Assembly (NCBI GenBank): GCA_963971425.1
Contig: OZ020514.1
Location: 28,880,602-28,944,601 of the forward strand
From: Bryoerythrophyllum caledonicum
Lineage: Eukaryota; Streptophyta; Bryopsida; Pottiales; Pottiaceae
Direction of reading: 5' to 3'
DNA: 64,000 nucleotides
Of this stretch, positions 1-63,815 are shown piece by piece. The notes beneath the pieces were generated by a model that searched no databases, was not told the origin of the DNA, and saw only the letters and a list, made by a program, of their open reading frames with translations. How positions within the stretch are numbered: position 1 is the first letter of the stretch; each line of letters starts with the position of its first letter. The position numbers and the translations under genes are program-made.

Positions 1-2714
1 TACATAAGTCGACGCGCTCCTGTTGTAATGCTCAACCCACAGAGAATTTGCAAGCTCAGCAAACGCCTGGATCTCGGCCTCATGGTCACCGCATATCCAA
101 ATCAAGACCGCCGGTTGCGTAAGGTTTGGCATTCCACCACTCTTCAAGGTTTTCATGAAGTCAGTGAAGAAGGGGTTTAGCACCCCGAATGTCGCCCTCC
201 GCATATAACTTGGGACAAAGCGGAAGTCGATCACTCCCAATCGTACAGGTGAATCTGTCGGCCAGGAGTTCGCAGGCCATTGCCCTAGCAAATTTGTGAC
301 CGCATTATACTTTCGGAAAAATGCAGATCCAACAAGCATTTTGAAGCTCGACCGTTTCTCCAAAAATTGTTTGAAGAAGGCCTTTGTGTACGGAGAGAGC
401 TGTTCAGCCTTTTTGTTCTTGCTCCTGAGCATCTTCCCTTCCGTGAAGAAGATCTCCCCTGGTTGCTCAAGAAGGACGCGCATCGTTGCTGACAAGACAA
501 AGTAATCTTTCTTGAATTGCTTCCAGCAGTCCGGTCTAAAGATTCTTGCGGCGTCAAAGAAAGCAAGGGAGGGTTTGATTCTGCTCAACTCCGTCCCGAC
601 TAGCTGCTTTCTCTTGCACGGCTCAACCCACTCCTTCAGAGTGAAGCAGCTTTCCAGCATTGAAGTAGGTTGCTTGATCACAAGCTTTGGCCATCGCTAC
701 GTCCGCTTTGCTCCGCTACGATTCAGGATGTGGAGAAACATCTTCGAGTGATCGAACTCCGACAGGTTCTCGAGCCACTTGAAGAATTCCCGGTTGAGTA
801 CCCCATCCTTTGCAGCTTTCCACGAAGACTTGTCCTTCATCTTGTGGAGGTCAGCTGAGTCAACATCCATTAACTCCCCCTACGCATATGAGGATATGAA
901 CTCACTCCAAAGAGCATAAGTTTCGTCAGAACTGGTGATGATCTTGACTTCGTTGTGAAGGTCAAGAGCATCGCTCTTCTTCTTCTTTCCAGCCGACCTT
1001 ATATTCGAGTTCACATCGGTACATGCAAAGCAAAGCTGAACTGCTTCGATGAATTCCTGACATTCCATAAAAATATGTCCCATATCGGAAAGTACACTGC
1101 ATGCAACTCGAAGCATGTTCAGCTCAAGTCGAGTTGAACATGTATGTCAATAATATGAATATATCAATCAAACTAGCTAACCTTTGCATCTAAAGAATAA
1201 ACTTCATTTCACTTCAACATCGAAACAATAATGATGGAAACTAATATTTTCATAATCAGCTCGACTCGAGATGAATGTGGACAACTTACCCTGTACTTCT
1301 TATCATTCAGGGAATTGCGACCACAACAACTGGGAGTATTATGTGGCTTGGGTGGTGTCAGACGCCCCAAATTGAACCAGATCGGTCGGGCGCTGAGTAT
1401 GTTTGTGGCCCACAACGGCTTGAAGACGGAGAAGTGGTTGACGCGGTTGTAGAACGCTAAAATTTGTCTCAGCTTCTTCTTGTCCAGCGACCAGACCACA
1501 AAGTAGTCCCACATTCAGAAGTGGCAAAGGATTTTGTCTCCGGTACTTTCTTCTCAGCGATCATTGCCTTACTCGCCACAACATTGTGCTATCCATTGAT
1601 GATTTTGAAGTTCAAATTCCGAATTTCTTTTCAATCACATGTGGGCTCTATAGGTGTGTCGGGCATCACGCACAAAGTTTGTTTTGCCGACTTGTCAGGC
1701 ATGTTGATTAGGTAATTCTTCATGGACTCCACGCCCTTCTGCTCTATAGCCCAGATAGTCTAGTCAACGGGAGCATTTGACATCTGGTTGATGTCGATAT
1801 CACGCTTAGCTTGGTTCAGGAAGACGAAGCAGTCTTGGCATTCCGCCCAAAACTTCTCGTAGACAACCGTGGCGTTTTTCTAATCAATGGTGTCGCTCCG
1901 CCACAGCTCCGCTAATATAATTGTGAGCGTAGAAGCTATGCTGACCTCCAAATCGCTCTGAGGTATTAATAGGGGTTTGTCCTGTCCACACACTGGTTTC
2001 CGATGCTAAGCGTCAGTGGCTGCTAAACGCCTAGGTTGCCTTCGCTTTGCAGGCTCCCCCAAACGTGAGCCGCGGAGGTTACTTCCGCTTGGGCGTGAGG
2101 TCCTCCTCCCAGTCGAGCCTTGACTGATATTTGCCTCACTCTCTGTTCTGAGAGATACTTCACCTGGCTCCATTGATGTTGAGGAGTTCCGGGTTTCAGC
2201 CTGCTTCATTGTCATGGACTGAAAAACTTTCGCCTGCAGCTTCGAAGTCAATACCTTTGTGTGCAGTGGGAGTCCATGGTCGGTCACCCAAAATTTATGA
2301 TCCTGCAACTCTTCAAGTCCTTTCAACATCGTCGTGAAGATTGTGTTCTCCAGCCTAGAAAGCAGCCAAGCGAGGCTAAAGAACTGGCTGGTGCTGTCAA
2401 TGACAACGCAATATACGAACATCTGGATCGTTTCTGATTGACACTTTAGTACAACCCATTTGCCCTGGTGGTCCACATCGAGGACGGGGTCTAACAACGC
2501 AGGTGCAAGGTAATTTTCTTCGCCGACCCATTTGTGTACGAGAGCCAGGGTGTTAGTTATCGGGACGTTCTATAAGGACCACCCCTCATGCTGTTGGGGT
2601 TCTAAAATCTCGTAGAATGGTCCTTTTGAAGAGTCATTTGCGTCATCTGATTCGATTGCGACGTTGGAGGGCGCGTAGAATCTATCTTGCAATGTCAATT
2701 GCTCCTCGACCTCA
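1..2714 (-). pseudogene. A1: relic of an unrecognised transposon-borne gene (family A), truncated by the window edge
   Basis: Read on the minus strand, this matches the plus-strand copy at 60590-64000 nearly line for line. The first recognisable exon starts at 2714, after an AG acceptor. It encodes an acidic stretch (AIESDDANDSSKGPFYE), then KWVGEENYLAPALLDP, then a Ser/Arg/Pro-rich linker (2006-2170). Next come blocks containing YEKFWAECQD, MPDKSAKQT and FVVWSLDKKKL. A second exon (about 1060-860) carries KKKKSDALDLHNE and TYALWSEFISSY. The last part visible (120-1) reads LIWICGDHEAE and LWVEHYNRSAS. In-frame stops interrupt it, for example TAG at 2006-2008 and others near 1879, 1761 and 1644. 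A 2-base insertion near 1530 shifts the frame. The gene is dead. Function is unknown; an amino-methyltransferase-like C-terminus is argued under findings. Confidence 0.7.
1114..1280. repeat. Two dyad palindromes inside an A1 intron
   Basis: Imperfect palindromes lie at about 1114-1142 (CATGTTCAGCTCAAG then TCGAGTTGAACATG) and 1252-1280 (core AGCTCGACTCGAG). Both fall in the intron whose donor (AGG|GTAAGT on the minus strand) follows the codons for NDKKYR. The matching intron of copy A2 has its two palindromes at the equivalent places (62013-62042 and 62150-62178). Confidence 0.75.
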
Positions 2715-2796
2715 CTGGAAGATGCAATTTTACACTGTCAGCTTCTCTAACATTTTACAACTTGAAATTGGCATCTATGTGTTTAATGTTAACATT

Positions 2797-2942
2797 TATA
2801 TTCAACTTGGTTCGAGTTGAATTTGTAACTACCGTATTTGGATTCAGTGTTATGTTGCAATTCTTTGCAATCCGTTATTATTTTTGATAGAAAATTTGGA
2901 CTTTGTTTTTTGCACATTTAGCTCGGGTCGAGCTAAATGTGC
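2797..2942. repeat. Palindrome pair upstream of A1
   Basis: Two palindromes lie in the non-coding DNA upstream of the first A1 exon. One is at 2797-2825 (TTCAACT...AGTTGAA type). The other, at 2912-2942, has 14-base perfect arms GCACATTTAGCTCG and CGAGCTAAATGTGC around a 3-base centre. The same pair recurs upstream of A2 near 60475-60505 and 60365-60395. Homology between A1 and A2 stops about 2987, just before the B inverted repeat begins at 2994. Confidence 0.7.
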
Positions 2943-3119
2943 AAGAAGAAGATATCATTATATGGACTACTGTTTAGATTACCAATTCTCAAGGTTCATT
3001 GCAATGGTTATGACCGTAATTGCTATAGTGTATCATTAAACTTGAAAACTTCACGTGTCCGCGTATGTCGCCGCATATTTTGGGGTAGGAATTGACCTTA
3101 TTGATAAAGTGGAAGGACC

Positions 3120-3860
3120 TCGGTTGCACATTCAGCTCGAGTTGAGCTAAATGTGTTGGTCATGAGGATATTTTGTGATTAATGTAGAGCAGCATCATCA
3201 GAATGTGGCTGGAACTCGGGAGGCGAGAGTTCAACAGCAATTTTAGTTACACATTGAGCTCGAGTCGAGCTGATTGTGCACGACGTGAGGACATCATGTG
3301 ATCAATATAGAGCAGCAACCTCAGAATGTTGCTGGAACTTGGAAGGCGTGAGTTCAACAGCAATTTCAGTTACACTTTCAGCTCGAGTCGAGCTGATTGT
3401 GTGCGGCGTGAGGACTTCATGTGATCAATGTAGACTAGCAACCTCAGAATGTTACTAGAACTTGGAAGGTGAAAGTTCAACAACAATTTCAGTTGCACAT
3501 TCAACTCGAGTCGAGCTAATTGTACACGACGTTAGGACATCATGTGATTAATGTGGAGCAGCAACCTTTGAATGTTTCTCGAACTTGGAAGGTGAAAGTT
3601 AAAAAGCAATTCCAATTGCACATTCAACTCGAGTCGAGCTGATTGTGTACGATGTTAGGAGGTCTCTAGAACACCATAGAAAAGCAACCGTAGAATGTAG
3701 GTGGAACTTGGAAGGTGAGGGTTCATCGGATGTTGCCGTGACACATTCTTCTCGAGTCGAGCTGAATATGCAAGATGGCAGGACATCTTTCGATCACCGG
3801 AATTTTGTTGGTACTTGGAAGTTGGGATTAGCCAGCTATTTTCGTTGCACAATTAATTCA
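3120..3860. repeat. 123-bp-period tandem array, one palindrome per unit
   Basis: Six units carry palindromes beginning at about 3126, 3249, 3371, 3495, 3618 and 3740, a spacing of 122-124 bases. Each unit has the palindrome core AGCTCGAGTCGAGCT, followed by a conserved segment resembling 'gacgtgaggacatcatgtga' and 'ctggaacttggaaggtga'. The array lies between the divergent genes A1 and B1. The same array is in the right arm at 53201-53941. Short reading frames across it are by-products of the repeat. Confidence 0.88.
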
Positions 3861-3979
3861 AATATTGTTGATTATTCGCATCATTGGATCTCCAGCCACT
3901 ATTAAGTTTTCAGTAATATATTAGTGAGTACAGTTCACTTCAATACTAATGTGAATGTGGACATGGTTTTTGCTTTCCA

Positions 3980-4133
3980 TATTATGCTCGAATCGAGCTT
4001 AATGTGCATCCTTCAATATTCCATCCCCCTTGCCCTGAAACCAAAGCGACATCACTCTCGTAGTTCATCCTTTTTGAGCATGGACAAACATGCATTATCT
4101 ATTCACAATCAACTCAAGTTGAGCTGAATGCGC
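3980..4133. repeat. Two palindromes just upstream of the B1 start
   Basis: Palindromes at about 3980-4008 (GCTCGAATCGAGC) and 4103-4133 (AACTCAAGTTGAGCT) lie within 220 bases of the first ATG of B1 at 4195. Their placement would suit a promoter or a binding site for the element's own protein. That role is inferred from position only. Confidence 0.65.
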
Positions 4134-4194
4134 CCTTGAACTAGATAATCACGTCTACATTAATGCGGTCTCTGTATGCACTGGCAGATTTGAG

Positions 4195-6873
4195 ATGGCA
4201 AGTTCAAGCACTGTCTACTTCATCGGTGAATTCAATTCCAACGATAGCGGCTCCTTCCAGAATAATCCTCTCGACCCTAATTAGCCTGATTTTGTAGTTC
4301 TTCATCGCCGTCAATGGGTTGGGAAAATTGTAGAAATGAAAAATATCACCGATGTTACCATTTCAGATGGGATTCTTCAAAACCTACGGTCATCTGATGT
4401 TTCTGGATCAACATCTCTATTAGATGAGACACATGTTGCCATTCAAGTATCAAAAACATATGTTGCGGATGAAGCACCGGATGAATGGCGATATTGTGTG
4501 AAGGCCTGGCCAATTGAGCGGGTGTTTTACAATGGCGTTAGTCTATTCCATCATAACCAATGGGAGACTTACGAAACTCTGATGGCAATGCGAAACCAGC
4601 CCTTTGGTGAGAGGACCCGCTCTTATGAGAGCTCCTTTAGAAATCCTCCGGTATCTCCTTTGTCGAAGTCGAGCCGGCTCTTCTCAGATGACTCCATCAA
4701 CTTTGTCGCTGCTAACTCCTGCTGGTCTAGAAGTTGTGTCCAGCTATATCCTCGTGATAAGATTAAGGTCCTTAGGATGCATATGTACTTTGGCACGATA
4801 GTGGTTTTCAGGAGGCATATTAAGTTAGATGTTCATAGACAACTCCGTATTGACAGCAATGGTCAAAATGTTGTCATCCTTAAAAAGAACGCCGACCACA
4901 TGCCTTTTAAGACTCGAGTACTGCCCTCAAGTGAGAAGGTTGTTGCTAAGGTTCTACCTTCGAATTTCAAGTGGAAAGATCAAATCCCTCCACTTGACTC
5001 TCATTTAGCAGATTGCGGACTTCCACCGATATCGACTTCTGGACTAAGTAAGATTAGATAGGTCCACTTTCCTGATTTCAATGCAAAACGGCCTGGAGAT
5101 AATTTTGCACAATGCTCTTTCTGTGATGATTTCCAAACCCAAAGGAAGTTACATCAGCGTGGAGCTCAGGCCACTTTGGTATGGCAGCTAAAGTTGAGCA
5201 CCCACTTGGATTCCGCAATGGCCCATCGGGAGTTGTATTATTCCAATCGTTATCGCTCTCAGGTATTGCCTGATGAATGTCTCACCATCATGCATGATAA
5301 GATGGATCACTCCAAGACTGCCTCGCTTGCCCTTTCTCACAAGATCAAGCATGTCGACGGCCTTACGCGATTACCAATTTCGGTCACAGGAATGCTTGCA
5401 CATGGTCGTAGGAACGTTCGTTATGCTCATTATGGCTTAGATATTTACCCGCATGATGTCAACTACACTGCCGCTTCTTTTGCCAAGTTGTTGCGTGATT
5501 TGGAATAATCCCCGAAGGCATCTAGTCGGAAATTGTTTGAAGGATCCGGGAGGACTGCGTTGTTCCGTGTTGTGTTGCACGGTGCCAAGGATGCGTGTAT
5601 GCCTTCACTACCTGATCACTCTGGAAACCCAACTCCTGCCAAACCTCTGCCTCCAATTTTACATGTGCAAATAGATAATGCTGTTAGTAACAATAAGAAT
5701 AGATATGTTTTCTGCTTCTAGTCTCTTCTTCTTGCAAAGGGTATCTTTCAAGAGGTTTATGTGAATTTCATGCTAGTTGGCCACACTCATGATGACATTG
5801 ATGCGTTATTTGGTTGATAGAGTATGGCATTGAAGAGGGAAAATTTCCTTACCGTTCCTTTGCTAATGAAATCATTTATGGAGTTTGAAGCAATTCCAAC
5901 AGCTCCTCACCTTATTGAAGAAGTTCCAGACTTCAAGTCCTTCATTAGTGATGGAATTTTAGTTGGAGATGAAGTGCTTTGGGGTCACACAAAGGCTCAC
6001 CAGTTCAAATTCTACGTTGACTGTAGTGGATGCCCGGTGCTGAAGTATAAGATTTTGTGCCATAATGACGATTGGCTTCCGTGAGATGGGGGAATCAAGT
6101 TGTGGAAAGAGGATTCTATTGAAAGGTCCTTGTGGCCTCGTGGTGATCCAATTGCCTTGCAACCTTGTCCCATTCGGAATGTTGAGGAAGTGATAAAGGG
6201 CGTGTTGGGTTTCATTTCATATTGGGAGCAACAATCGTGGTAGGATGCTACTGGTGAATATTGTCGGCGGTGTGAGCCTCTGAGATACTATTGGCGTGCG
6301 GTAAACGATTCATGCAATGAACCCATGGTTCTACCAACTATGCTTCAGAATAGATTTTGGCCTACAACTCGAATTGATCGGATTGTCGAGGACCAGATCA
6401 CGGAAGGGGGGGTTCTTTGAGAGGAGTTTGATGAGGATGATGCCTTTGTTGGACACGTTTGTGATTGCTCTGCGCCCTCATTCCGGATCGCTCGGGACAT
6501 ATTTGCGGGCTACTTTCTTGCTATAAGGCCTTGTGATGGAGACGAGCGCCCTGTTTGGATCGCTCGAGCAATGACAGATCCTAATTCTTACCCCGAGCGG
6601 CCAAACTCACTTCGCATACAATACTACCATCCTACCTCACGCGATTCGCACATCCAAAGAAGCTATGCGGGTTGGGATGCCCCTGGCGGTCTGAGGTGGA
6701 GGATAGATGACGACCTTGAGGAGGTCTGGAAGAGCACGAAATCCCTCATCACGGCATCGAAATCAAGGATCCAAAGAGAATCTTTGTGTTCTAATGCAAA
6801 GATACCTCTAGAGCAGGTTGAAATCATTAAGGCAAGCCTCATGAGGAACAACTCAGCATCTATACCTGAGTAA
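4195..6873 (+). pseudogene. B1: DUF7869-like probable transposase gene, 892 codons with nine in-frame stops
   Basis: From ATG 4195 to TAA 6871 one frame runs 892 codons with no frameshift. It is interrupted by stops at 4282, 5059, 5506, 5719, 5815, 5818, 6082, 6241 and 6418. Landmarks in order are: a strand block RRQWVGKIVE (about residue 42); a Cys pair QCSFCDD (about 305); DKMDHSKTA (about 370); LTRLPISVTGMLAHG; VQIDNAVSNNKNRYV (about 493-507); and LVGHTHDDIDALFG (about 527-540). The C-terminal region contains PVWIARAMTDPN. The IDN...NKNRY and GHTHEDID blocks are the hallmark of DUF7869 proteins as I remember them; the spaced Asp residues suggest an RNase H-fold transposase. The Cys pair may bind zinc. 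All nine stops recur in B2. There is no intron. Palindrome-rich DNA flanks it on both sides. Confidence 0.75.
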
Positions 6874-7784
6874 TTCAATTAACATAGTATGTTGTCATAA
6901 GTGTTTTGTTTGTGAGTGAAATTCATATTTGAAATCATACTACTAGCATTCAGCTCGAGTCGAGTTCACTATGCCCGCGTCCATCTACTCTTAAATGTCT
7001 AGACTATATACACATAGTTGTGCGCATTGATGTGTTGACGAATGGGAGATGTTAAGGTGTACTTTCTGCTTGTGCCGAGCTAAAAGTGCAACACATGTTA
7101 TTTGTACCATGATGCATTTCAATACTTCATCAATGTAGTCCTCTTTTTGTTTGATTCATTTCCTCATGAGCCTATACTTTTTGCATACACTGCTCTTTCA
7201 AAAGCGAGTGATGTGATCATGAACACAAATTCCAGTTGTCATTTTGATAATTTCATTGATTAAGAATGAAAATATTTAGTATTTGGATTGTTTAATACAC
7301 ATCTGAGGTACTGGCGCACTTTTTGCTCGATTTGAGCTAAACTTGTCCACAAAATGTAGTGGAATGCTTCAGTTTTATTGCTTGGAGATTTTTCCTTTGC
7401 TATATCGATGGCTATACATGCATATGCGTTGATGGCACACTTTCAACTCGATTCAACCTGAACATGTATACCAATTTTAATGGTACATTTTACGTATTCA
7501 TTGCTATGGACTTCAACATGTGGTATTTTTTACGGATTTGTAAGTATTACATGTTGACTCACATTAATGTCGCATAGAGCTTTACATGCACACCAACATC
7601 TTCTATATTCATAGAGTTTAAAACGTAAATCTTCGCCTCCCAATTTAGTAGACACCATAATTATAGATATTTCAAAAACATGCATTGCACAAATTCTCTA
7701 TACTTAATATGTACATTTATTTCGATTCTACCTGAGTTATTATTTTGGGAGACCCCCAATCTCCCAATTTAATGAATATGGTGT
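6874..7784. other. 3' flank of B1 with further palindromes
   Basis: This non-coding DNA carries palindromes at about 6946-6973 (CATTCAGCTCGAGTCGAG), 7318-7348 (GCTCGATTTGAGC) and 7436-7470 (decayed). It belongs to the inverted repeat but is visibly less identical between arms than the B coding core. No gene was recognised in it. Confidence 0.55.
7745..7767. repeat. Short stem-loop at the edge of the inverted repeat
   Basis: TTGGGAGA, a 7-base loop and TCTCCCAA form a perfect 8-bp stem about 17 bases inside the end of the repeat arm. The mirror copy is at about 49294-49316. It could be a terminator-like or boundary structure; no role is shown. Confidence 0.5.
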
Positions 7785-7819
7785 TTGTACTATACTAATT
7801 CGAAGCAGACTCTGTTCCG

Positions 7820-9420
7820 GAATTGCATATGTGAGGACATCTCTCCCCACGCCAAGGAGCTCTTTTGATTTTTTGTTCATGAGAGGGCGCGGTTTGTCAA
7901 AGCACAAGGCGTTATGGACCTCCGTGGCTACAAGTTGGAGACGAACTTGCTCGACATGTGGCCTTCTAATTTGTAGCGAAACCTTGGCTGTAATGTGAAG
8001 CTTGGAATTGTCGGCTTTCGGAACATTTTGGGCTTTGGAGGAAAGTCAGAGGCGTCTTTAACAAAGCCGTGCTTTCAGAAGTTTGTGAATATGTTCTCCG
8101 CAGAGTAGCCATCCCTCACAGGACTTCCAGCGTGGCTTTTCATCTACGGAGATGTCGAGATGTATAAGCAAATGGAGGCATTTGCAAATGGAGAGGCGTT
8201 TTCCGTGGGATACAACGTTCTTCCATTGGAATACATCTCCTCCCTCAAAAAGCGTCTTGGAGGACATTCAGCCAAGAGTAAACTTGCGTTGGATTCTGTG
8301 CAAATGCTCTTTCTTTTCACGAAAGACCTCAATATAATCTTGGTTGTGAAGGAGTACAGAGTTGTGGAGCATGTGTTGTACAAAAAGCATCAGAAATATA
8401 ACAAGCTTGATTATTCCATGCATATGAACGAGCTCAGAATGGAATTTGTTGTCAATCTGCTAAAACTCTTCTGCAAGCCAGAGACAACAGTGGTACATAT
8501 GTTTGCGGGTACAAAATTGTTGAGCGCTAGTATGGTAAGTCGACTTGCACTTTCGCTTGACTTGAACTAAAATGCACATACATTCATGTCATAATAAGCC
8601 TCGCTATGTAACTGCTTGCCTTTGTTGTCCTATGTAATTGTATGTTCTCGAAATGATTTTCTCGGTAGTTTTGATTTCAAGTCTTTTTCCTTTCAATTGT
8701 TACTGCATAACTTAAGCTCAATTTTAGCTAAAGTGAAAAATAGCCTCTCTTTTTAAACTTGTTTCTGCGCTTGTCGTTTGAGGCACAGGATTGCTATTAA
8801 ATATATAGTAGTTGCGCATCATCAAAATCAGCCATGTTTTGTGCACTTTAGCTCAACTCAAGCTAAAGTGCACATTGATCTCCTGCTAGACATGCCTAAT
8901 CTCTCACATGGGTCGCAAAGGTTGGATGAACGCTATACTGGAAATATTTCCTGGTTGTTGGATATCACGTTAGGGAGAAGGTGTCCCCGCTCCTTGGGAA
9001 GGCTCTTTTGAAGGGGAAAGGGATAGTGGGCGAGGAAGAGGATGACGAGACTCGGAGCACTATCGGTGGAACTTCAAGCCCAAGCGTAAGAACCTCGGCA
9101 GCTGAATCAGGTGATGACTTCGACAATATTGCTCCTCTAGAGCATGATAGGGGGATGCATTCCGAAGTCGGTCATATTGTAGGTACCATTCGATAGCGTA
9201 TGACTACTCATCGTCTAGTCTTTCTAGAGTTCGATTTGTTGGTCATCTATGATAGACCTTGTTCAGCTTCCGTGTTGGACGAGTCATCTGGTCGTCCTCA
9301 GCCAATGAAAAGGAAGGTCATCAACACTATGGTGCGCGCTCCGTTTGCCTCTGCAAGTATTGTTGGAAAGGTCACTAGGTTTAGGGTCCTCCAGAAAAAG
9401 AGAACCATAGAACCATGACA
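7820..9420 (+). pseudogene. A4: C-terminal half of a diverged family-A gene, with methyltransferase-like motif
   Basis: Several blocks align with other A copies. CEDISPHAKELF matches AEELSPYAKAFF of A2. WLFIYGDVEMYKQMEAFA matches LIWICGDHEAEIQAFAEL of A1. MLFLFTKDLNIILVVKE and HVLYKKHQKYNKLDYSM match the minus-strand reading of A3 at 44740-44880. The exon ends LFCKPETTVVHMFAGTKLL...SM, then a donor GTAAGT at 8535. The intron (about 8535-8900) contains palindromes. The last exon (about 8950-9418) encodes an acidic tail and a basic block (QPMKRKV) that aligns with A3's end. In-frame stops (for example near 7893, 7974 and 8107) and a frameshift near 8960 show decay. The N-terminal half is absent; the sequence begins 35 bases beyond the inverted-repeat end. 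Confidence 0.6.
8841..8873. repeat. Palindrome of the older 'TTTAGCT' type in the A4 intron
   Basis: Perfect 13-base arms GTGCACTTTAGCT and AGCTAAAGTGCAC enclose a 7-base centre. A weaker relative is at about 8708-8732. The outer arms differ from those of A1/A2 (CACATTCAGCT), with the change present on both sides, so base pairing is kept. Confidence 0.75.
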
Positions 9421-37755: not shown

Positions 37756-38010
37756 AGTTTATACCTCACAAAGAAAATTAGAAGTAGAAGAAAAGAAAAT
37801 GAAGAAATTAGAAGTAGAAGTAGAAGAAGTAGAAGAAGAGAAAGAGAAAAGAAGAAAAAAAAAAGGAGAAAAGAAGAAGAGAAAGAAATAAGAAAGAGAA
37901 AAGGAGAAAATAAGAAGAGAAAGAGAAAAGAAAGAGAAAGAGAAAAGCAAGAATAAAGGAGAAAAGAAGAAGAGAAAGGAAAAGGAAAAGAAAGGAGGCG
38001 AGGAAGATGA
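37756..38010. repeat. Polypurine tract (GAA/AGA-rich)
   Basis: About 250 bases almost wholly of A and G on the plus strand, with AGAAGAAAAGG-like runs. Long Ser/Phe/Leu-rich frames on the minus strand here are artefacts of the tract. Purine tracts of this length can form triplex structures. Confidence 0.85.
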
Positions 38011-43023: not shown

Positions 43024-43058
<35 letters not shown>

Positions 43059-45270: not shown

Positions 45271-45878
45271 GACTGAATTCTCCAGCAATACTGAACAAGC
45301 CCAGCTCCGACTTAATGATGTTGAGCTCCATTCGAGCAACCTCTTTCCTCTTCCTCCAATTGATCCAATCTTGCGCGTTGTAGAAGTCCTTAAGTATATC
45401 TAGAGGTTGCTTCACAACCACCTTAGAATAAGGTTCTTCCGGCAATGGCTCTGATCGATTGAGAATTTCTCTACACATTTTTTCGTCATCAACCTCGGTC
45501 ATGTTGCCCAAAAACTTGAAAAATTCGCGCAGCAGCATCCAATCTTTCTTCGGAACCCAAGACTTTGCATCCTTGAAGTTAGCCATCGGCGTCGATTTGG
45601 ATTCGACGTCAATGAGGTCGTCGTGCGCTGCCAAAGATATGAGCTCTTGCTAGAGCTTGATTGTACCCTCAAACGCGATGATGATTTTTACCTTGTTTGT
45701 CAGCTAGAGACCCTTAGCCTTTCCCCCTTTTTTGAGCTCTGCTTGGCTCTTTTCAAGGTCGATCATGGCAAACCATTCACAAACAACGTTGAAAAATGTC
45801 TGCAAATAACAAATTACTATCTAGGGTAATTGATCATAATAGTGTATTGATAATTAGATCAAAGGATATCCAACTCTT

Positions 45879-46006
45879 ACACTTTGGCTCAAGTTGAGCT
45901 AAAATGTGAATAGAGAAAATACAAAGAAACGGTTTGAATCTATATTCATAAAATTATAGATACAAAAGCACATATTTGCACATTACCTCAAGTTGAGCTA
46001 AAGAGC
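45879..46006. repeat. Two palindromes in an A3 intron
   Basis: CACTTTGGCTCAAGTTGAGCTAAA-type palindromes occur at about 45879-45909 and 45979-46006. They lie between the exon ending near 46110 and the exon starting near 45825, matching the two-palindrome intron of A1 and A2. Confidence 0.65.
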
Positions 46007-47545
46007 GTTTGCTTGTTTTAAAAATCTTACCTCGTATTTCATATCATTTGCAAACTCCAATGTTGTTCTTTGCCTTGATCTGTACATACCTCTAATGCTT
46101 GTCGCGGAGTGCTTTGGCATTGGTCTGCCAGCGTGAATCCACAAAGACAAAGTGCCTTGGACATTAGTTGCCCACCTTGACTTGAACTACACGAAGTGAT
46201 TTGCGCAATTATAGTACGTGAAAATCTTTCTCAGCTTCTTCAAATCCTACGTTGAGAGAATGAACCACTACCAAGTTCGAAAGTGTTGCATGATATGTTC
46301 GAGATTCCTGCTGATTATCACCATCCTCAACGCTACAACATTGTGCAAGCTATTTATGATATGGAAGTCACAATCTCCAATGTCCTTAACCTTTGATGGC
46401 TTCTCATCAAGCTTAAGCATGACGTAGATAGTATGTATCTGCAACTTGTTGGCCATTTCGATGTAATAATGCATCAACTCCTCCATCCCCCTAGGTTCAA
46501 ATGCATGTATCGTCTACTCCGCACGCGCATTAAAGAGCCTCATGACGTCAAGCTTGACCTTCTTTTCTCTATCTTCAAAGACCAAGCAGCCCTGAAACTT
46601 TGATGTGAATTTTTGGTATATTTCTTCGACGTTAGTGTAGTCGATAACCTTACCATACTTGAGCGCATGAGGGAGCTCCAAAAATGCGGAGGCTATGCGA
46701 TTTGTCAACTTATTCTCCGAGAGGAGCTCCGTCTTTTTCTTTGACAAGCATCTTGGCTTCATGGCAGCATAACGTTGTTTTACAAGTGAACCAGATTGCG
46801 TGTTGTGTAGGTTGCTCCTGCTTGTTCGTGCGCCTAGTGTTTGCACTTGTGCCGAAGCTTGACTCAATTGGTGGCTTCCGGTCTCGGACTCTGATACTAT
46901 AAGAATAGTTAACAGGCGCTTGTCCGCAATTTTTTTGGCCTTCTCTAGTGCTGCAAATGTATTCATTCAGGATAGGATAACGCGAAGCATAAACGCTACT
47001 GCCTTTGCCTTTAGCAACTGACCACTACTAGTCCCCCATTTCTTGAGGGAGATTTCATGGTCAATTTGGGCCTCTATATCATCGAATTTAGACCCCGTAA
47101 GTGTCTCATCACAGTCTTCGATGGAGAAGGATGATATATCAATGTTCACTACTATACTGAACATATATGGCTCTACGCACTCAATAATTGTCACATATGT
47201 CAACTTTATGTGCTCGATATCTTCGTGAACCACATCCGTAATTTTGGTATTGTAGTCTAAGTATTGCGGGTCTGAGACATCACCAATGAAAGTCTGACAA
47301 AATACGAGATTTATCTGTCTAAGGGGCCCTCAAAAGCGTCCACTTTGACGTCTTGGTTGGATCTTTGAGCTCCTTTAAATCCAAAAGGTTGATGTCATCC
47401 CTATCGTCGTCATCTAGGTCAACTGGCTTTGGTTCATAGAAGTGTTGCAGCTTAGTCACAATGCCGTCCCTCTCATTTCAGCACCTATAAGAAACCCAAC
47501 ACAAGCATCAAATCTCTGAATTGTTATTCCATAGATGTTCAAGAG

Positions 47546-48350
47546 TTCACATTTTAGCTCAACTCAAGCTAAAGTGCATCAACTAAATCTGTATATTGTA
47601 ACCTACCATAGAGCTCTTGTAAACAAAAGAGCTACCTTTGAGAGAAATACTCAAGATAAGAGGACTCTACCTAAGTTAGGAGAGGACCTCACCTAGAATT
47701 CTAATGAGGAACTTTGCAAAACTAGGCAAAAACATCTAATCCTCTACACTTTAACTTGTATTAAGCTAAAGTGCATCAACTAAATTTGTTCTCAACAATA
47801 TACTAGAGAGCTACAAGGAACAAAAGAGCCACCTTTGAGCAAAAGAGCACCAAATTTAATGATGTTGCGAAGTTTTGGAAAGGACCTCACCTCGAATCTA
47901 GGTGAGGACCTCTGCAAAACAGCCCAGCGGCATCTAATCTTGTTTACTTTAAGTCAAGTTGAGGTTAAGTGCATATTATTGAATGCAAATAATTATGATA
48001 AAAGTATGTATAAAATTTACAACATGATTGTGTATTGCAAGCATAGTGAGCTCAACACGAGTTACTAAAGAGCAATGCTTGGTCTTAAAAGTAGAAGATG
48101 AGATGACTTTGCGCATCTTTGGAAAGGGTCTCAGCTAGAATCCAGGCAAGGTCTTTTGCAAATATATGCAAGGTCAACTCATCTTGTACACTTTAGATTG
48201 ATTTGAGCTAAACCGTAGTGGATGGTGAACTTATTATGATTTTTTTATAATGTTTTTGACTTGTAGAGTTTATTTTGGGTCCAGACAGGTGCCGGTTTTT
48301 GTTAAGGCAAGGTGGTATCCATACTTTAGCTCAAGTTGAGCTGAAGTGTA
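47546..48350. repeat. Repeats with palindromes upstream of A3
   Basis: Palindromes or their remains occur at about 47549-47579, 47748-47775, 47945-47972, 48187-48212 and 48321-48350, roughly 200 bases apart. Between them lie repeated phrases such as 'aggacctcacctagaatt' and 'gagctacaaggaacaaaagagccacctttga'. This is a decayed tandem array, equivalent in place to the palindrome arrays upstream of A1 and A2. Confidence 0.65.
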
Positions 48351-48959
48351 GCTAGTACCATATGAATTTCATCTACATTAGAGTGTCAAGTTTTCATTTG
48401 TCAACAAAAGGGTTCAGAGTAAAAGTTTTGGGGTTTAGATTTTAGGTGTAGGATTAAGAGTTTTTACCTTTTAGCCATTTCTAACCACTTTACAACAACG
48501 TGATTCCCAATAAAAACTAGGGTCTTGCAACAATAATTACATTCCAAATTGTGAGCAACAAATATAAAATCATGAATCATATTACAAACTTTATCATTCA
48601 ATTACCGAAATAAATAAACATACTACCATACAATATTGACAAACAAAATAAACACAAACACAAACACCATCATATATAATAACAAACCAAAACCATACAT
48701 GGACACTCAAGAACGCTTATTATCAATGAGAAAGACAAGCAAAAAGAACCACCACTTAACTATCCGAAGTAGAGAAAACAAGGAAGAGAACAAATGCACA
48801 CAAAACAAAACCAAACGTGCATTTATAGAAATGATCACATGAAAAGAATTGCATTTAAATGCACAAAAAAGCTAAAATTAAAAAGCATGTGTAGTAATTT
48901 AAAAAATAAGCTGTACAGACCGTAATGCAATATCAAACAGGATTAAATGAAGAATCACA

Positions 48960-49240: not shown

Positions 49241-50187
49241 GAAACAATAGGTTATGATTGCAACAATATACCTTTCACACCACATTCATTAAATTGGGAG
49301 ATTGGGGGTCTCCCAAAATAACAACTCAGGTAGAATTGATCTAAATGTACATATTAAGTATAGAGAATTTGTGCAATGCATGTTTCTGAAATATCTACAA
49401 TTATGGTGTCTACTAAATTGGGAGGCGAAGATTTACGTTTTAAACTCTATGAATATAGAAGATGTTGGTGTGCATGTAAAGCTCTATGCGACATTAATGT
49501 GAGTCAACATGTAATACTTACAAATCCGTAAAAAATACCACACGTTGAAGTACATAGCAATGAATACGTTAAATGTACCATTAAAATTGGTATACATGTT
49601 CAGGTTGAATTGAGTTGAAAGTGTGCCATCAACGCATATGCATGTATAGCCATCGATATAGCAAAGGAAAAATCTCCAAGCAATAAAACTGAAGCATTCC
49701 ACTACATTTTGTGGACAAGTTCAGCTCGAATCGAGCAAAAAGTGCGCCAGTACCTCAGATGTGTGTTAAGCATTCCAAATATTAAATATTTTCATTCTTA
49801 ATCAATGAAATTATCAAAATGACAACTGGAATTTGTGTTCATGATCAGGTCACTCGATTTTGAAAGAGGAGTGTATGCAAAAAGTATAGGCTCATGAGGA
49901 AATGAATCAAACAAAAAGAGGACTACATTGATGAAGTATTGAAATGCATCATGGTACAAATAACATGTGTTGCACTTTTAGCTCAGCACAAGGAGAAAGT
50001 ACACCCCGACATCTCCCATTCGTCAACACATCAATGCGCACAACTATGTATATATAGTCTAGACATTTAAGAGTAGATGGACGCGGGCATAGTGAACTCG
50101 ACTCGAGCTGAATGCTAGTAGTATGATTTCAAATATGAATTTCACTTACAAACAAAACACTTATGACAACATACTATGTTAATTGAA

Positions 50188-52866
50188 TTACTCAGGTATG
50201 GATGTTGAGTTGTTCCTCATGAGGCTTGCTTTAATGATTTCAACCTGCTCTAGAGGTATCTTTGCATTAGAATGGGAAGATTCTCTTTGGATCCTTGATT
50301 TCGATGTCGTGATGAGGGATTTCGTGCTCTCCCAGACCTCCTCAAGGTCGTCATCTATCCCCCACCTCGGACCTCCAGAGGCATCCCAACCCGCATAGCT
50401 TCTTTGGATGTGCGAATCGCGTGAGGTAGGATGGTAGTATTGTATGCGAAGTGAGTTTGGCCGCTCGGGGTAAGAATTAGGATCTGTCATTGCTCGAGCG
50501 ATCCAAACAGGGCGCTCGTCTCCATCACAAGGCCTTATAGCAAGAAAGTAGCCCGCAAATATGTCCCGAGCGATCCGGAATGAGGGCGCATGGCAATCAC
50601 AAACGTGTCCAACAAAGGCATCATCCTCATCAAACTCCTCTCAAAGAACCCCCCCTTCCGTGATCTGGTCCTCGACAATCCGATCAATTCGAGTTGTAGG
50701 CCAAAATCTATTCTGAAGCGTAGTTGGTGGAACCATGGGTTCATTGCATGAATCGTTTACCGCACGCCAATAGTATCTCAGAGGCTCACACCGCCGACAA
50801 TATTCACCAGTAGCATCCTACCGCGATTGTTGCTCCCAATATGAAATGAAACCCAACACGCCCTTTATCACTTCCTCAACATTCCGAATGGGACAAGGTT
50901 GCAAGGCAATTGGATCACCACGAGGCCACAAGGACCTTTCAATAGAATCCTCTTTCCACAACTTGATTCCCCCATCTCACGGAAGCCAATCGTCATTATG
51001 GCACAAAATCTTATACTTCAGCACCGGGCATCCACTACAGTCAACGTAGAATTTGAACTGGTGAGCCTTTGTGTGACCCCAAAGCACTTCATCTCCAACT
51101 AAAATTCCATCACTAATGAAGGACTTGAAGTCTGGAACTTCTTCAATAAGGTGAGGAGCTGTTGGAACTGCTTCAAACTCCATAAATGATTTCATTAGCA
51201 AAGGAACGGTAAGGAAATTTTCCCTCTTCAATGCCATACTCTATCAACCAAATAACGCATCAATGTCATCATGAGTGTGGCCAACTAGCATGAAATTCAC
51301 ATAAACCTCTTGAAAGATACCCTTTGCAAGAAGAAGAGACTAGAAGCAGAAAACATATCTATTCTTATTGTTACTAACAGCATTATCTATTTGCACATGT
51401 AAAATTGGAGGCAGAGGTTTGGCAGGAGTTGGGTTTCCAGAGTGATCAGGTAGTGAAGGCATACACGCATCCTTGGCACCGTGCAACACAACACGGAACA
51501 ACGCAGTCCTCCCGGATCCTTCAAACAATTTCCGACTAGATGCCTTCGGGGATTATTCCAAATCACGCAACAACTTGGCAAAAGAAGCGGCAGTGTAGTT
51601 GACATCATGCGGGTAAATATCTAAGCCATAATGAGCATAACGAACGTTCCTACGACCATGTGCAAGCATTCCTGTGACCGAAATTGGTAATCGCGTAAGG
51701 CCGTCGACATGCTTGATCTTGTGAGAAAGGGCAAGCGAGGCAGTCTTGGAGTGATCCATCTTATCATGCATGATGGTGAGACATTCATCAGGCAATACCT
51801 GAGAGCGGTAACGATTGGAATAATACAACTCCCGATGGGCCATTGCGGAATCCAAGTGGGTGCTCAACTTTAGCTGCCATACCAAAGTGGCCTGAGCTCC
51901 ACGCTGATGTAACTTCCTTTGGGTTTGGAAATCATCACAGAAAGAGCATTGTGCAAAATTATCTCCAGGCCGTTTTGCATTGAAATCAGGAAAGTGGACC
52001 TATCTAATCTTACTTAGTCCAGAAGTCGATATCGGTGGAAGTCCGCAATCTGCTAAATGAGAGTCAAGTGGAGGGATTTGATCTTTCCACTTGAAATTCG
52101 AAGGTAGAACCTTAGCAACAACCTTCTCACTTGAGGGCAGTACTCGAGTCTTAAAAGGCATGTGGTCGGCGTTCTTTTTAAGGATGACAACATTTTGACC
52201 ATTGCTGTCAATACGGAGTTGTCTATGAACATCTAACTTAATATGCCTCCTGAAAACCACTATCGTGCCAAAGTACATATGCATCCTAAGGACCTTAATC
52301 TTATCACGAGGATATAGCTGGACACAACTTCTAGACCAGCAGGAGTTAGCAGCGACAAAGTTGATGGAGTCATCTGAGAAGAGCCGGCTCGACTTCGACA
52401 AAGGAGATACCGGAGGATTTCTAAAGGAGCTCTCATAAGAGCGGGTCCTCTCACCAAAGGGCTGGTTTCGCATTGCCATCAGAGTTTCGTAAGTCTCCCA
52501 TTGGTTATGATGGAATAGACTAACGCCATTGTAAAACACCCGCTCAATTGGCCAGGCCTTCACACAATATCGCCATTCATCCGGTGCTTCATCCGCAACA
52601 TATGTTTTTGATACTTGAATGGCAACATGTGTCTCATCTAATAGAGATGTTGATCCAGAAACATCAGATGACCGTAGGTTTTGAAGAATCCCATCTGAAA
52701 TGGTAACATCGGTGATATTTTTCATTTCTACAATTTTCCCAACCCATTGACGGCGATGAAGAACTACAAAATCAGGCTAATTAGGGTCGAGAGGATTATT
52801 CTGGAAGGAGCCGCTATCGTTGGAATTGAATTCACCGATGAAGTAGACAGTGCTTGAACTTGCCAT
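50188..52866 (-). pseudogene. B2: second copy of the DUF7869-like gene, same nine stops
   Basis: Mirror of B1: ATG at 52866, terminal TAA at 50190-50188, 892 codons in one frame. The internal stops of B1 are all present at the mirrored positions (for example the TAG/TGA pair at 51241-51246 and the TAG at 52002-52000). Because shared inactivating changes are found in both copies, B2 arose by duplication after the gene had already acquired the stops, or the arms have been homogenised since. The small C-terminal differences (for example ASGGPRWGIDDDLEEVWEST against APGGLRWRIDDDLEEVWKST) are the only clustered ones. Confidence 0.75.
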
Positions 52867-53200
52867 CTCAAATCTGCCAGTGCATACAGAGACCGCATTA
52901 ATGTAGACGTGATTATCTAGTTCAAGGGCGCATTCAGCTCAACTTGAGTTGATTGTGAATAGATAATGCATGTTTGTCCATGCTCAAAAAGGATGAACTA
53001 CGAGAGTGATGTCGCTTTGGTTTCAGGGCAAGGGGGATGGAATATTGAAGGATGCACATTAAGCTCGATTCGAGCATAATATGGAAAGCAAAAACCATGT
53101 CCACATTCACATTAGTATTGAAGTGAACTGTACTCACTAATATATTACTGAAAACTTAATAGTGGCTGGAGATCCAATGATGCGAATAATCAACAATATT

Positions 53201-53941
53201 TGAATTAATTGTGCAACGAAAATAGCTGGCTAATCCCAACTTCCAAGTACCAACAAAATTCCGGTGATCGAAAGATGTCCTGCCATCTTGCATATTCAGC
53301 TCGACTCGAGAAGAATGTGTCACGGCAACATCCGATGAACCCTCACCTTCCAAGTTCCACCTACATTCTACGGTTGCTTTTCTATGGTGTTCTAGAGACC
53401 TCCTAACATCGTACACAATCAGCTCGACTCGAGTTGAATGTGCAATTGGAATTGCTTTTTAACTTTCACCTTCCAAGTTCGAGAAACATTCAAAGGTTGC
53501 TGCTCCACATTAATCACATGATGTCCTAACGTCGTGTACAATTAGCTCGACTCGAGTTGAATGTGCAACTGAAATTGTTGTTGAACTTTCACCTTCCAAG
53601 TTCTAGTAACATTCTGAGGTTGCTAGTCTACATTGATCACATGAAGTCCTCACGCCGCACACAATCAGCTCGACTCGAGCTGAAAGTGTAACTGAAATTG
53701 CTGTTGAACTCACGCCTTCCAAGTTCCAGCAACATTCTGAGGTTGCTGCTCTATATTGATCACATGATGTCCTCACGTTGTGCACAATCAGCTCGACTCG
53801 AGCTCAATGTGTAACTAAAATTGTTGTTGAACTCTCGCCTTCCAAGTTCCAGCCACATTCTGATGATGTTGCTCTACATTAATCACAGAATATCCTCATG
53901 ACCAACACATTTAGCTCAACTCGAGCTGAATTTGCAACCGA
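53201..53941. repeat. 123-bp palindrome array, right-arm copy
   Basis: Reverse complement of the array at 3120-3860, with the same six units and the same spacing. Confidence 0.88.
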
Positions 53942-59640: not shown

Positions 59641-59769
59641 TTACAATGCATAGGTGCTGAGATTGAGCAATTGGAGCAGAGCAGTCGGTGTTTTTCTTCA
59701 CACGAAGAAATGTCGCATACTAGATAAGAATTTTTATCCCCGAAATCAATGACTTCCATCCGGTTACAT

Positions 59770-60520
59770 GCATAATCAGCTCGACTCGAGTTGATTATGC
59801 ACAATTCTAGATACGGGAGCGTTGAAAATAGGATATAGGGATGGCAAATTCAGCTCGATTTGAGCTAATTGTGTACTAAAATAATAAAATTAACCAATCG
59901 TTGAGAAGTTAAGCTAGCCATACCTGTGGCCAAACGAACAAAAATACAAGTAATATATCACACGATAGATTCGCATGAATATCTTAACTAAAATCACCAT
60001 GACAGTTGGTAATCTAAACAGTAAACCATAAAATGCGACTTGCTGATTGCATGATTAGCTCAACTCGAGTTAAATGTGCATAATACGAAGGACAACGACA
60101 TCATTTAAAAATATTAACAGACTGCAATCAAAAGCATCAAACCACTGCACCCGCAAACAGAAGTTTCAGATTCAACTCGGACCGAGTTGAATATGAATGT
60201 CAACATTGTGCTTACATATGACTATCTAAGGATGTGAAAGCGAAACCTCTGGAAAGAAAATACGATTATTAACTTTACAGTAAAGTCGAATCAGTGTTAA
60301 TTATAAAATCACGTTGAGATTAATAATCTAAACAATAGACCATATACTTAAATCCTCTTCTTGCACATTTAGCTCAACCCGAGTTGAATGTGCATGAAAG
60401 AAAGTCTTTTTATTAATCAAAAATATAAAGAGACTGCAGAGAAATGCAACAATACACTGAATCTAGAAATGGAAATTATAAATTCAACTCGAACCGAGTT
60501 GAATATGAATGTTACCATTG
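59770..60520. repeat. Palindrome cluster with about 300-bp repeat period, upstream of A2
   Basis: Palindromes occur at about 59772-59800 (perfect, GCATAATCAGCTCGA then TCGAGTTGATTATGC with one change), 59848-59875, 60055-60083, 60168-60198, 60365-60395 and 60478-60508. The two types (CACATTTAGCTC and ATTCAACTCG) alternate, and the pair 60055/60168 repeats as 60365/60478. Between them recur TAATCTAAACA.TA.ACCATA and AAATC.CAT/G.GAGAT. Only one such unit is present beside A1. Confidence 0.75.
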
Positions 60521-62012
60521 AACACAAAAATGTCAATCTTAAGTTGTAAAACGAAAGAGAAGCTGACATTGTAAAATTGAATCCTGCAGTGAGGTTGAGG
60601 AACACTTGGCGCTGCTCGATAGATTCCAACGTTGCAATTGAATCAGATGACGTGAACGACGCTTCAATGGGACCATTCTACGAAATTTGAGAACCCCAAC
60701 GGCATGAGGGGTGGTCCTTACAGAACGTCCCAACAACAAACACCCTGGCCCTGGTACACAAATAGGTGGGCAAAGAAAATTACCTTCCACCTGCGTTGTT
60801 AGATCCGACGTTAACGTGGACCACCAGGACATATGGGTTGTACTAAAGTGTCAATCAGAAACGACCCAGAAGTTCGTATAGTGCATTTTGATTGACTGCA
60901 CCTGTCAGTTCTTCAGCCTCGCTCCGCTGCTATCCAGTCTGGAGGACACAATCTTCACGACGATGCTGAAAGGACTTGAAGAGTTGCAGGATCAAAATTT
61001 TTGGGTCACGCCCAATGGACTTCCATTGCGCGCAAAAGCATTGACTTCGAAGTTGCGGACTTAAGTTTTCCAGTCGATGACAATGAGGCTCGCTGAAACA
61101 CGGAACTTCTCAACCTCAATGGAGCCAGGTGAAGTTTCTCTCAGAACTGAGAGTCAATCGATTACTAGTCAAGGCTCGTCTAGGAAGAGGACCTCACGCC
61201 CAAGCGGAAGTAACCTACGCTGCTCACGTCTCGGAGAGGCTGCAAAGCCGAGACAACCTAGGCGTTCAACTGCCACTGACACTCAGCGCCGGAAACTAGC
61301 CTGTGGATAGGAGAAACCCCTAGCAGTAACACAGAGCGATTTGGAGGTCAGCATAGCTTCTGCGCTGACTAGTATAACAATAGAGCTAAGGTCGGGCGAT
61401 ACCATTGACTACAAAAACGCCACGGTCGTGTACGAGAAGTTCTGGGCAGAATGCCAAGACTACTTCGTCTTCCCGAACCAAGCCAAGCGTGAGATCGACA
61501 TCAACCAAATGTCAAATGCTCCCGTTGACTGGACTATCCGAGCCATGGAGCAGAAGGGCGTGGAGTCCATGAAGAACTACTTGATAAATATACCAGACAA
61601 GTCCGCCAAACAAACATTGCGCGTGATGCCTGACACACCTGTAGAGCCCACAAGTGATTGGGAAGATATCCGGAAGATGAACTTCAAGATCATCCACGGA
61701 CAGCACAGTGTTGCGGCGAGCAAGGCAATGATTGCTTAGAAGAAGGTGCCGGAGACAATCCTTTGCCACTTCCAAACGTGGGGCTGCTTTGTGGTGTGGT
61801 CGCTGGACAAGGAGAAGCTGAGAAGAATTTCAGCGTTCTACAACCGCGTCAACCACTTCTCAATTTTCAAGCCGCCGTGGGCCACAAACATCCTCAGCAC
61901 CTATCCGATCTGGCTCAATCTAGGGCGTCCGACACCACCCAAGCCATAGAATACTCCCGATGGTCATGGTCGTGCGATTCCTTGAACGATAAGAAGTACA
62001 GGGTAAGTTGTC

Positions 62013-62178
62013 CACATTCAGCTCGAGTCGAGTTGATTATGAATATGTTAGTTTCCATCATTCATGTTTACATTTTGAACTGATATAATGCTTACTCTTC
62101 ATATGCAAATGTTAGCTAGTTAGATAGATTTATTCATATTATTGACATACATGTTCACCTCGACTCGAGCTGAACATG
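62013..62178. repeat. Two palindromes in the A2 intron
   Basis: 62013-62042 (CACATTCAGCTCGAG then TCGAGTTGATTATG) and 62150-62178 (CATGTTCACCTCGAC then TCGAGCTGAACATG). The intron starts GTAAGT at 62003. Positions match the A1 intron. Confidence 0.8.
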
Positions 62179-63639
62179 CTTCGAAGTCATGTAGTTTAGT
62201 TTCCGGAATCTATCATGTTGTTCTGAAATAACAAGAATTTATCAAAGTAGTTCAGCTTTGGTTTGCATGTATCGATGTGAACTTGAATATAAGGTCGGCT
62301 AGAAAGAAGAACAAGAGCTCTTGACCTTCACAACGAAGTGAAGATCATCACCAGTTCCGACGACACTTATGCTCTCTGGAGCGAGTTCATATCGTCATAC
62401 GCGCAGGGCGAGCTGATTGATGTCGACTCAACAGACCTCCGCAAGATGAAGGACAAGAATTCTTGGAAAGCTGCGAAGGATGGGGTGCTCAACCAAGAAT
62501 TCTTCAAGTGGCTCGGCAACATGTTGGAGTCCGATCACTCGAAGATGCTTCTCCACATCCTAAATGGCAGTGGAGAAAAGCGGACGTGGCGATGGCCGAA
62601 GCTGGTAATCAAGCAGCCTACTCAGTGCACGAGAGTTGCTACACTGTGAAGGAGTGGGTTGAGCGGCGCAAGAGAAAGTAGCTAGTCAGGAGGGAGTTGT
62701 GCAAAATCAAACCCTCTCTTGCTTTTTTTGATGCCGTAGGAATCTTCAGACCGGACCGCTGGAAGCAGTCCAAGAAGGATTACTTCATCTTGTCAGCAAT
62801 GATGCGCGTCCTGCTTGAGCAATCGGAGGAGATCTTCTTTACGGAAGAGAAGATGCTCAAGAGCATGAACAAGAAGGCTGAAGAGCTCTCTCCCTACGCG
62901 AAGGCCTTCTTCAAACAATTTTTGGAGAAGCGGTCCAGCTTCACGAAGCCTCTTGGATCAGCATTTTTCCGGAAGAACAATGCGGTGACAAATACGCAAG
63001 GGCAGTGGCCTGCAAACTCATGGCCGAGAGGTTCACATGTACGACTGGGGGTGATCGACTTCCGCTTCCTCCCAGGTTATATGCAGAAGGCGACAATCGG
63101 GGTGCTAAACCCCTTCTTTACAGACTTCATGAAGACGTTGAAGAGTGGACGAATGTCGGGCCTTATGTAACCAGAGGTCTAGATCTAGATACGCGGTGAC
63201 CATGAGGCCGAGGTCCAGGCATTTGCTGAGCTTGTGAGTTTTCCTTGGGTCGAACATTACAAGAAGTGCGCGGCGTCTTATGTTCAAGGGAAGCACGAGC
63301 GTTTGGGCAACGTGGCAGTAGGCAGCAAGCCATTGAAGGAGCCTGTCATGATGATTTGGATCACCTAGAAGGCAAGGAATTAGTACATTGGAGTTTGCGA
63401 CGAGTTCAAGTCGCCGAATCATGCCGCCAATGATGACAATCGCAAGTATCGGGAGCTGGATTTACGTGTGAACAATGGAGAGTTCACGATGGAGTTCTAC
63501 TTCCAGATACTGGGAATGTTGTGCAAGCCTGGTGATCTTTTCAGCGTTTGGCGGATCAAAAATCCTTATTGCAGCAGTGGTTAGTGCTTCTGAATTTTTT
63601 AAATTTTGTCGTTGTTGTCTACCGTATCATTCTATTGTC

Positions 63640-63815
63640 AAATCAACTCGATTGGAGTTGAACATGCGGCGTGGAATCACGTGCTGCATGATTAGCTCGA
63701 CTCGAGTTGAACATGTAGTGTGGATTCAAGTGCTACATGATTAGCTCGACTCGAGTTGAACATGCATCGTGGATTCAAGTGCTGCATGTTCAGCTCGACT
63801 CAAGCTGATTCTGCT
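63640..63815. repeat. 48-bp tandem array with four palindromes in the last A2 intron
   Basis: Palindromes at 63645-63667, 63687-63716, 63735-63765 and 63784-63812 are 48-49 bases apart. They are joined by the phrase GTGGATTCAAGTGCTGCATG. All lie inside the intron that starts at 63580. In A4 the intron at the same codon position also contains palindromes. Confidence 0.85.

Follow-up and report, generated by a model that had tools for sequence, protein, structure and literature searches.

The window analysed here, a 64,000-nucleotide stretch of contig OZ020514.1 of the moss Bryoerythrophyllum caledonicum, contains many copies of a 33-bp dyad, an inverted repeat around the core AGCTCGA-n-TCGAGCT. 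This dyad is real and well delimited, and it belongs to a single moss-type lineage of DNA transposons with two genes, A and a DUF7869 gene B. On the sequence evidence, it is probably the repeated cis-acting site of that lineage and is bound by a protein dimer. The evidence comes from direct observation of site locations, element ends and target duplications, of dyads in derived miniature inverted-repeat transposable elements (MITEs), and of family-specific arms, one-sided decay and the half-site profile; of the readings compared, which included a hairpin and a copying mechanism, a dimer site fits these observations best.

Delimitation and placement of the dyad

A preliminary description of the window had reported a 31-bp palindrome that recurs in introns and spacers throughout a single transposon family. 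Within the window, 24 core matches with at most one mismatch were found against 0.01 expected, and a relaxed scan returned 54 dyad sites, with three mononucleotide shuffles yielding 1, 2 and 6. Genome-wide searches covered 437 Mb in 894 contigs of the genome containing the window. The exact core occurred 6187 times and its reversed control never, and 2216 sites matched the 31-mer with at most three mismatches (control 0). These core counts confirm the palindrome itself, and the sites named at 1114, 1252, 62013, 62150 and 63645-63812 and the 123-bp array are all present. The reported length required correction: the paired fraction is 0.64 at position 16 but only 0.27 at position 17, and because pairing collapses between these positions the palindromic unit is 33 bp rather than 31 bp.

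Placement was determined for 46 of the first 50 among the 6187 exact core sites, the remaining four of the 50 being left out. All 46 were inside A/B elements or derived MITEs, so that for the sites examined the palindrome is absent from unrelated DNA. Assignment was through homology or terminal inverted repeats (TIRs) for 40 of them, and the last six, at loci L049 and L051, are directly upstream of B genes. Twenty sites viewed with 10 kb of surrounding sequence (19 near perfect palindromes plus one cluster) fell into two settings, namely clusters adjoining A and B genes and lone dyads in a 163-bp element. The claimed absence from A and B exons held as a depletion and not as a total absence: across 17 loci, A/B protein-matching sequence made up 49,251 of 185,705 bases and held 11 of 171 dyads, at least some of them at match edges (14 of 171 with an earlier query set that included a read-through query).

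The most frequent dyad spacings in arrays were 34, 45, 47, 52 and 123 bp. At L018:4714-5017 and L019:4985-5254, 34-bp tandem arrays have a unit of approximately the dyad plus one base, and two alternative palindromes overlap within them. Arrays with units of 34-123 bp probably arise through ordinary tandem duplication. Dyads in arrays and copies share kinship, and their counts are not counts of independent events.

The element carrying the dyad ends in a 28-bp TIR, AACACCATATTC, found at 1118 + 1112 genomic places with at most two mismatches (control 0). Six TIR pairs on contig C1, 18.1-23.4 kb apart, each flank one B gene, and all six full-length elements have a perfect 4-bp target duplication. 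Its right ends are found beyond B and its left ends beyond A. B matches PF25273/DUF7869 (E 9.1e-39), and its best relatives from named organisms are from Ceratodon and Physcomitrium. Of 51 scored B places, drawn from 4544 first-look candidates, 22 had no stop within the matched stretch, which points to probable recent activity of the lineage. Among the aspartates of B, D430 is invariant and D552, D592 and D594 are conserved at 90% or more. A PDB sequence search with B gave one match, at chance level, and 17 pattern matches in viral contigs included no relatives of B.

For gene A, none of the window pieces tried reached the Pfam cut-off. Fourteen Ceratodon homologues of 1291-1463 aa were found, eight of which have a precomputed NIF/FCP1-like phosphatase domain, C-terminal in P0129 (E 8e-12). 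UG or VG appears in the Ceratodon locus tags of many A homologues and of B homologues too, and is read here as the U and V chromosomes. A (L024:4889-6589; homologues P0126-P0141) also contains the motif INGQHSVAAS, for which there was no Pfam hit and which we take to resemble ParB/DGQHR proteins.

Dyads were also found in two MITE families. MITE1 (163 bp, TIR AACACCATATTCATTATATTGGGAGATT) is approximately 99% identical among copies, with a perfect 4-bp target site duplication (TSD) in 28 of 29; nine of the 29 were found through the perfect palindrome and 20 through overall similarity. MITE2 (237 bp) has its TIR in common with MITE1. Its 15 copies comprised four selected for 237-bp TIR spacing and 11 obtained blind, and four more (L017, L054-L056) were used only in an alignment of 19. 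Dyad-blind sampling of TIRs gave 24 loci (L080-L103), 12 of them complete short elements. Together with the four picked for spacing, these formed a set of 16 short elements (15 MITE2, one MITE1), all of which had a TSD and exactly one dyad, scored as at least 9 of 16 positions paired. The other 12 sampled loci were long or chimeric element ends: at four right ends (L087, L091, L095 and L100) there is a dyad near +320 and another near +445, and L098, a MITE2-like end, has one. At L018 the palindrome at +313 is degenerate.

Differences between and within arm families

The outer arms fall into the families TGCACATTCAGCTCGA, TGCACTTTAGCTCRA, which is shorter by one base in each arm, and GACAGTTTAGCTCGA. 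The preliminary description had reported that the two arms co-vary between subfamilies, and between families this was upheld: 149 of 156 dyads classified on two arms were of the same class on both sides, against a permutation mean of 112 and maximum of 122, after 87 of 243 dyads had been dropped as unclassified. Permutation of arm classes within loci gave a mean of 142.7 and a maximum of 148. Exact CACATTC pairs occurred 169 times genome-wide and exact CACATTC/CACTTT mixed dyads 0 times. The form given for older copies held as a consensus and not as an exact string, with CACTTTAGCTCAA occurring once in the window (8844) and TTGAGCTAAAGTG never, and the site given at 36.4 kb is present but poor, with 10 of 15 arm positions paired.

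Deamination at CpG was weighed as a possible origin of the apparent covariation and rejected. It can account for changes from TCGA to TTGA/TCAA but not for the outer-arm difference, in which there is a symmetric 1-bp length change. Each CpG of the dyad was altered in this way in 5 of the 15 MITE2 copies.

Both arms differ jointly between families and hardly within one. Decay was scored in 234 dyads, of which 135 were family 1 on both arms, 29 family 2 and two mixed, the remaining 68 being dropped as unclassified or half-classified. The 135 family-1 dyads had 309 one-sided, 22 unpaired double and 39 paired double changes, so that the reported co-variation hardly extends to changes within a family. 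In MITE2 (15 copies) 20 changes were one-sided and one was paired, with fixed dyad mismatches at positions 12 and 15, and in MITE1 (29 copies) all three changes were one-sided. In the 57 dyads of families 2/3, 151 changes were one-sided; of the double changes, 59 were paired and 48 unpaired.

The per-position change rates of the two half-sites correlate with r = 0.97 across the 270 half-sites of the family-1 dyads, which have approximately 1.6 changes per half-site. Position 4 was never changed, positions 9 and 13 were changed in about 1%, and positions 4, 9, 13, 5, 7 and 14 all fell in the range 0-4%; position 12 was changed in about one third. Cytosines in CHH context vary about tenfold in rate by position (C12 versus C5 and C14), and since these share the same context, something beyond mutation context is needed to explain the profile. 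This is what the site of a dimeric protein looks like, whereas a stem would preserve pairing over letters, and the dimer therefore fits the profile better. Outside CpG, the MITE2 dyad had 0.028 changes per site compared to 0.054 for the interior (the TIR rate of 0.019 is biased because one exact TIR was demanded). In the 123-bp array, dyad columns were 0.90 conserved compared to 0.78 across the other columns of the unit, and the dyad near +320 had few changes across six right ends.

Dimer site and alternative explanations

In the proposed mechanism, a DNA-binding protein encoded by the element, either A or B, would sit on the two half-sites as a pair of identical subunits. Once bound in the spacer, the introns and the 3' flank, it would regulate the element genes, and one bound dyad would aid mobilisation even of the 163- and 237-bp MITEs. 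Selection would act on the dyad only during the activity of a copy. Families would drift to new outer half-site sequences jointly with their protein, which is proposed as the reason that both arms differ from those of other families, and inactive copies would lose symmetry one side at a time. A bolder form of this proposal seems rather unlikely. In it, the lineage would fall outside the described superfamilies and use a two-protein system: a dimer of A, whose homologues frequently carry the FCP1/NIF-like phosphatase domain at their end, would bind the dyad within the introns and promoters of the element, mobilisation would be coupled to polymerase-II control, and dyad and A would co-evolve into rarely mixing site families.

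Several observations weigh against a dimer site in this lineage. With CpG counted, the MITE2 dyad changes barely less than the interior (0.046 and 0.056). No recognisable dyad was found in approximately 500 bp at six of the 12 long or chimeric ends, namely L088, L089, L090, L097 and L099 (L018/L022-type left ends) and L101 (right-end-like), and the end at L103 has a weak dyad only; because six of 12 ends have no dyad, the site layout is not symmetric like that of classical subterminal repeats. The closest arm classes, CACTTT and CAGTTT, are one base apart and mix at 223 exact sites. Copies of A from the same arm class are 40-87% identical and those from different classes 30-51%, ranges that overlap, and the window B is 73% identical to B of L020 (same arm class), with B of L059 (other arm class) 66-69% identical to both; on these comparisons neither A nor B follows arm class cleanly. 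B is labelled a transposase only from context, the DUF7869 domain being one of 'unknown function', and dyad retention in MITEs represents two families that may be of common ancestry. Finally, there are more paired double changes than independence predicts, moderately so in family 1 (39, with 25.4 expected) and more so in families 2/3 (59, with 32.1 expected), where the excess is mainly at positions 11, 14 and 15 and sub-families and tandem copies are pooled.

Of the interpretations offered in the preliminary description, a site for a dimer of an element protein fits best, and the others were not supported. The excess of paired double changes would fit quasi-palindrome correction, in which template switching or hairpin repair copies arm onto arm and symmetry comes from mutation, not function. 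The 17 of 135 family-1 dyads that are perfect over 33 bp, several from MITE1 copies, and two L049 units whose outermost bases differ between units yet pair also agree with it. As a frequent process, such symmetrising mutation is contradicted by the MITE and family-1 changes, which are mostly one-sided, and by the fixed mismatches of the MITE2 dyad; a rare version is not contradicted. A mutational process would also not hold six positions near-invariant, and we consider this explanation improbable. The length and near-perfection of the inverted repeat, its frequency in introns and its presence in MITEs would suit a hairpin, as a cruciform or RNA stem acting for example in splicing, silencing or excision. 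A stem constrains pairing, whereas here letters are constrained at positions 4, 5, 7, 9, 13 and 14, mismatches are common and there is little compensation inside a family. One-sided changes outnumber paired ones among related copies in MITE2 (20:1) and family 1 (309:39), with families 2/3 mixed (151:59), and a hairpin function is accordingly quite improbable.

Under neutral descent, the dyads would be passengers of tandem duplication and transposition, and family differences would reflect ancestry. The arrays do resemble tandem duplicates in their recurrent spacings, CpG decay imitates some arm changes, and with CpG counted the MITE2 dyad decays nearly like the interior. However, the symmetric two-arm differences between families, the zero exact CACATTC/CACTTT mixes, the stronger conservation of the dyad than of its flank in the 123-bp array, the few dyad changes near +320 of six right ends, and the single dyad in every copy of both MITE families make passenger status an unlikely account. 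It had also been suggested that the dyads are small palindromic insertions that create introns, with a check for target-site duplication around each. Intron placement and a sharp outer boundary would agree with a tiny mobile palindrome, as would identical flanks slightly above shuffles at some offsets: at best, 13 of 203 dyads had identical flanking 4-mers at one offset, compared to 2.4 in shuffles (best of the offsets and lengths tried). Most of the 203 dyads have no flanking duplication, dyads also populate spacers, 3' flanks and MITEs, and all 46 examined core sites are within the same element lineage, which leaves this possibility with very little likelihood. The dimer site thus remains the favoured reading.

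Window architecture and known systems

The window contains parts of two A/B elements in inverted orientation, together with older A sequence (Table 1). Element 1 extends over 12.8 kb from C1:28875614 to window position 7785 and element 2 over 19.0 kb from window position 49276 to C1:28948848. Their flanks are crossed, AAAG...TGTA and CTTT...TACA (window 7785, 49276; L062:1013; L063:4247), each flank of element 1 being the reverse complement of an element 2 flank. It is as if both had started with perfect duplications and recombination between the inverted copies had then flipped the 41.5-kb interval that separates them. B1 and B2 with their spacers (2994-7784, 49277-54067) are 99% identical, compared to DNA blocks 82-88% identical for A1 and A2 (protein 75% over 253 aa), and gene conversion between the inverted arms could explain the higher identity of the B copies. 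B1 has nine in-frame stops in the matched stretch with one frame all through, which suggests decay via C-to-T changes, as in methylated repeats. The first of the two A2-intron dyads starts 8 bp past a GTAAGT donor-like site at 62003, the donor being inferred from the frame. Two other strong palindromes, ACCGGGGCACTGTGTGCCCCGGT and ATATCCTTCTCCACGTGGAGAAGGATAT, are present at 17049-17130, upstream of the gene for a receptor-kinase-like protein (17.9-20.5 kb), and are unlike the dyad in sequence.

Table 1. Dyads, genes and element ends in and next to the window (window positions unless prefixed C1)
Feature	Position	Strand	Details
Left end of element 1 with TIR	C1:28875614		Beyond window edge
Gene A1, element 1 (broken copy)	1..2630	-	tblastn with A pieces and homologues
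Dyad, A1 intron	1112..1144
Dyad, A1 intron	1249..1281
A1/B1 spacer, 10 dyads	2795..4134		Centres 2811, 2927, 3141, 3264, 3387, 3510, 3633, 3756, 3992, 4118
123-bp tandem array inside A1/B1 spacer	3123-3765
Gene B1, DUF7869 protein (broken)	4201..6873	+	PF25273, E 9.1e-39; single frame, in-frame stops
B1 3' flank dyads	6943..7468		Centres 6959, 7331, 7452
Element 1 right-end TIR	7758..7785	-	Flank TGTA
A3 fragment	7800-8540
Family-2 dyads behind A3 fragment	8706..8873		CACTTT arms; centres 8722, 8857
Older A element A4	35150..48351	-	Left-end TIR-like site at 35150, 6 mismatches
Weak family-2 dyads in A4			Centres 36407, 43417, 45893, 45992, 47563, 48202, 48335
Element 2 right-end TIR, inverted copy	49276..49303	+	Flank CTTT
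B2 3' flank dyads	49714..50118		Centres 49730, 50102
Gene B2	50191..52860	-	Inside 4791-nt inverted repeat, 99% identical to B1 copy
B2 upstream region, 8 dyads	52927..53936		Six in 123-bp array 53296-53938
A2 upstream region, 6 dyads	59769..60509		Centres 59785, 59859, 60064, 60181, 60378, 60493
Gene A2 (broken)	60627..63584	+	Continues into L063
Two dyads, A2 intron	62011..62180
Four dyads, A2 intron	63636..63815		49-bp tandem array
Element 2 left-end TIR	C1:28948848		In L063; flank TACA

The preliminary description knew of no described plant repeat with such behaviour, a statement that was too strong, since the subterminal repeats of CACTA elements form palindromes and vary between subfamilies (PMC2613891). 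According to the same source, the subterminal repeats of CACTA elements (Spm/En, Tam1, Tgmt/Tgm1) are bound by TNPA/TNP1-type proteins, and deletion derivatives are mobilised in trans when cis sites remain (PMC2613891). In soybean Tgmt, a CACTA element of 20.5 kb, the repeats that can form palindromes number 2 at the left border and 12 at the right, and the repeat motif differs between Tgm1 and Tgmt, a difference that the authors tie to diverging TNPA-like proteins (PMC2613891). The moss element is similarly a large two-function element with palindrome-forming repeats and a subfamily-specific motif in one species. In contrast to the CACTA termini and 3-bp TSD of those elements, it ends in AACACC with a 4-bp TSD, and its B is a DUF7869 protein and not tnp2. 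No tnp2/TNP1-type domains were found in the scanned B proteins (PF25273 only), A exon 1 or four scanned A homologues. Unlike CACTA repeats, the moss sites are concentrated in the spacer, the introns and the end on the B side, and every one of them is a complete 33-bp dyad. CACTA is the closest behaviour found in print, and the moss element itself is no CACTA. Among titles and abstract openings no description of this dyad was found, and no mention of DUF7869 was found in the papers searched.

Other systems have features in common with the moss element. The Sola superfamily (Bao et al. 2009) reportedly has a 4-bp target duplication and a DDD-type transposase and is said to occur in moss; the 4-bp TSD is shared, a likeness of description. 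The 'Lanisha' elements of Ceratodon sex chromosomes may be the same element, with the Ceratodon U/V-type locus tags of the A and B homologues as a point in common. Introner elements and other intron-creating MITEs are repeats found in introns; unlike them, the moss dyads mostly have no flanking duplication and also occur outside introns.

A dimer site whose sequence diverges from family to family and decays inside each can produce an apparent covariation of its two arms, with no need for a hairpin. With its natural series of cis-site families, its stop-free B stretches and a very young MITE family, the lineage makes the co-evolution of a protein and its site directly testable.

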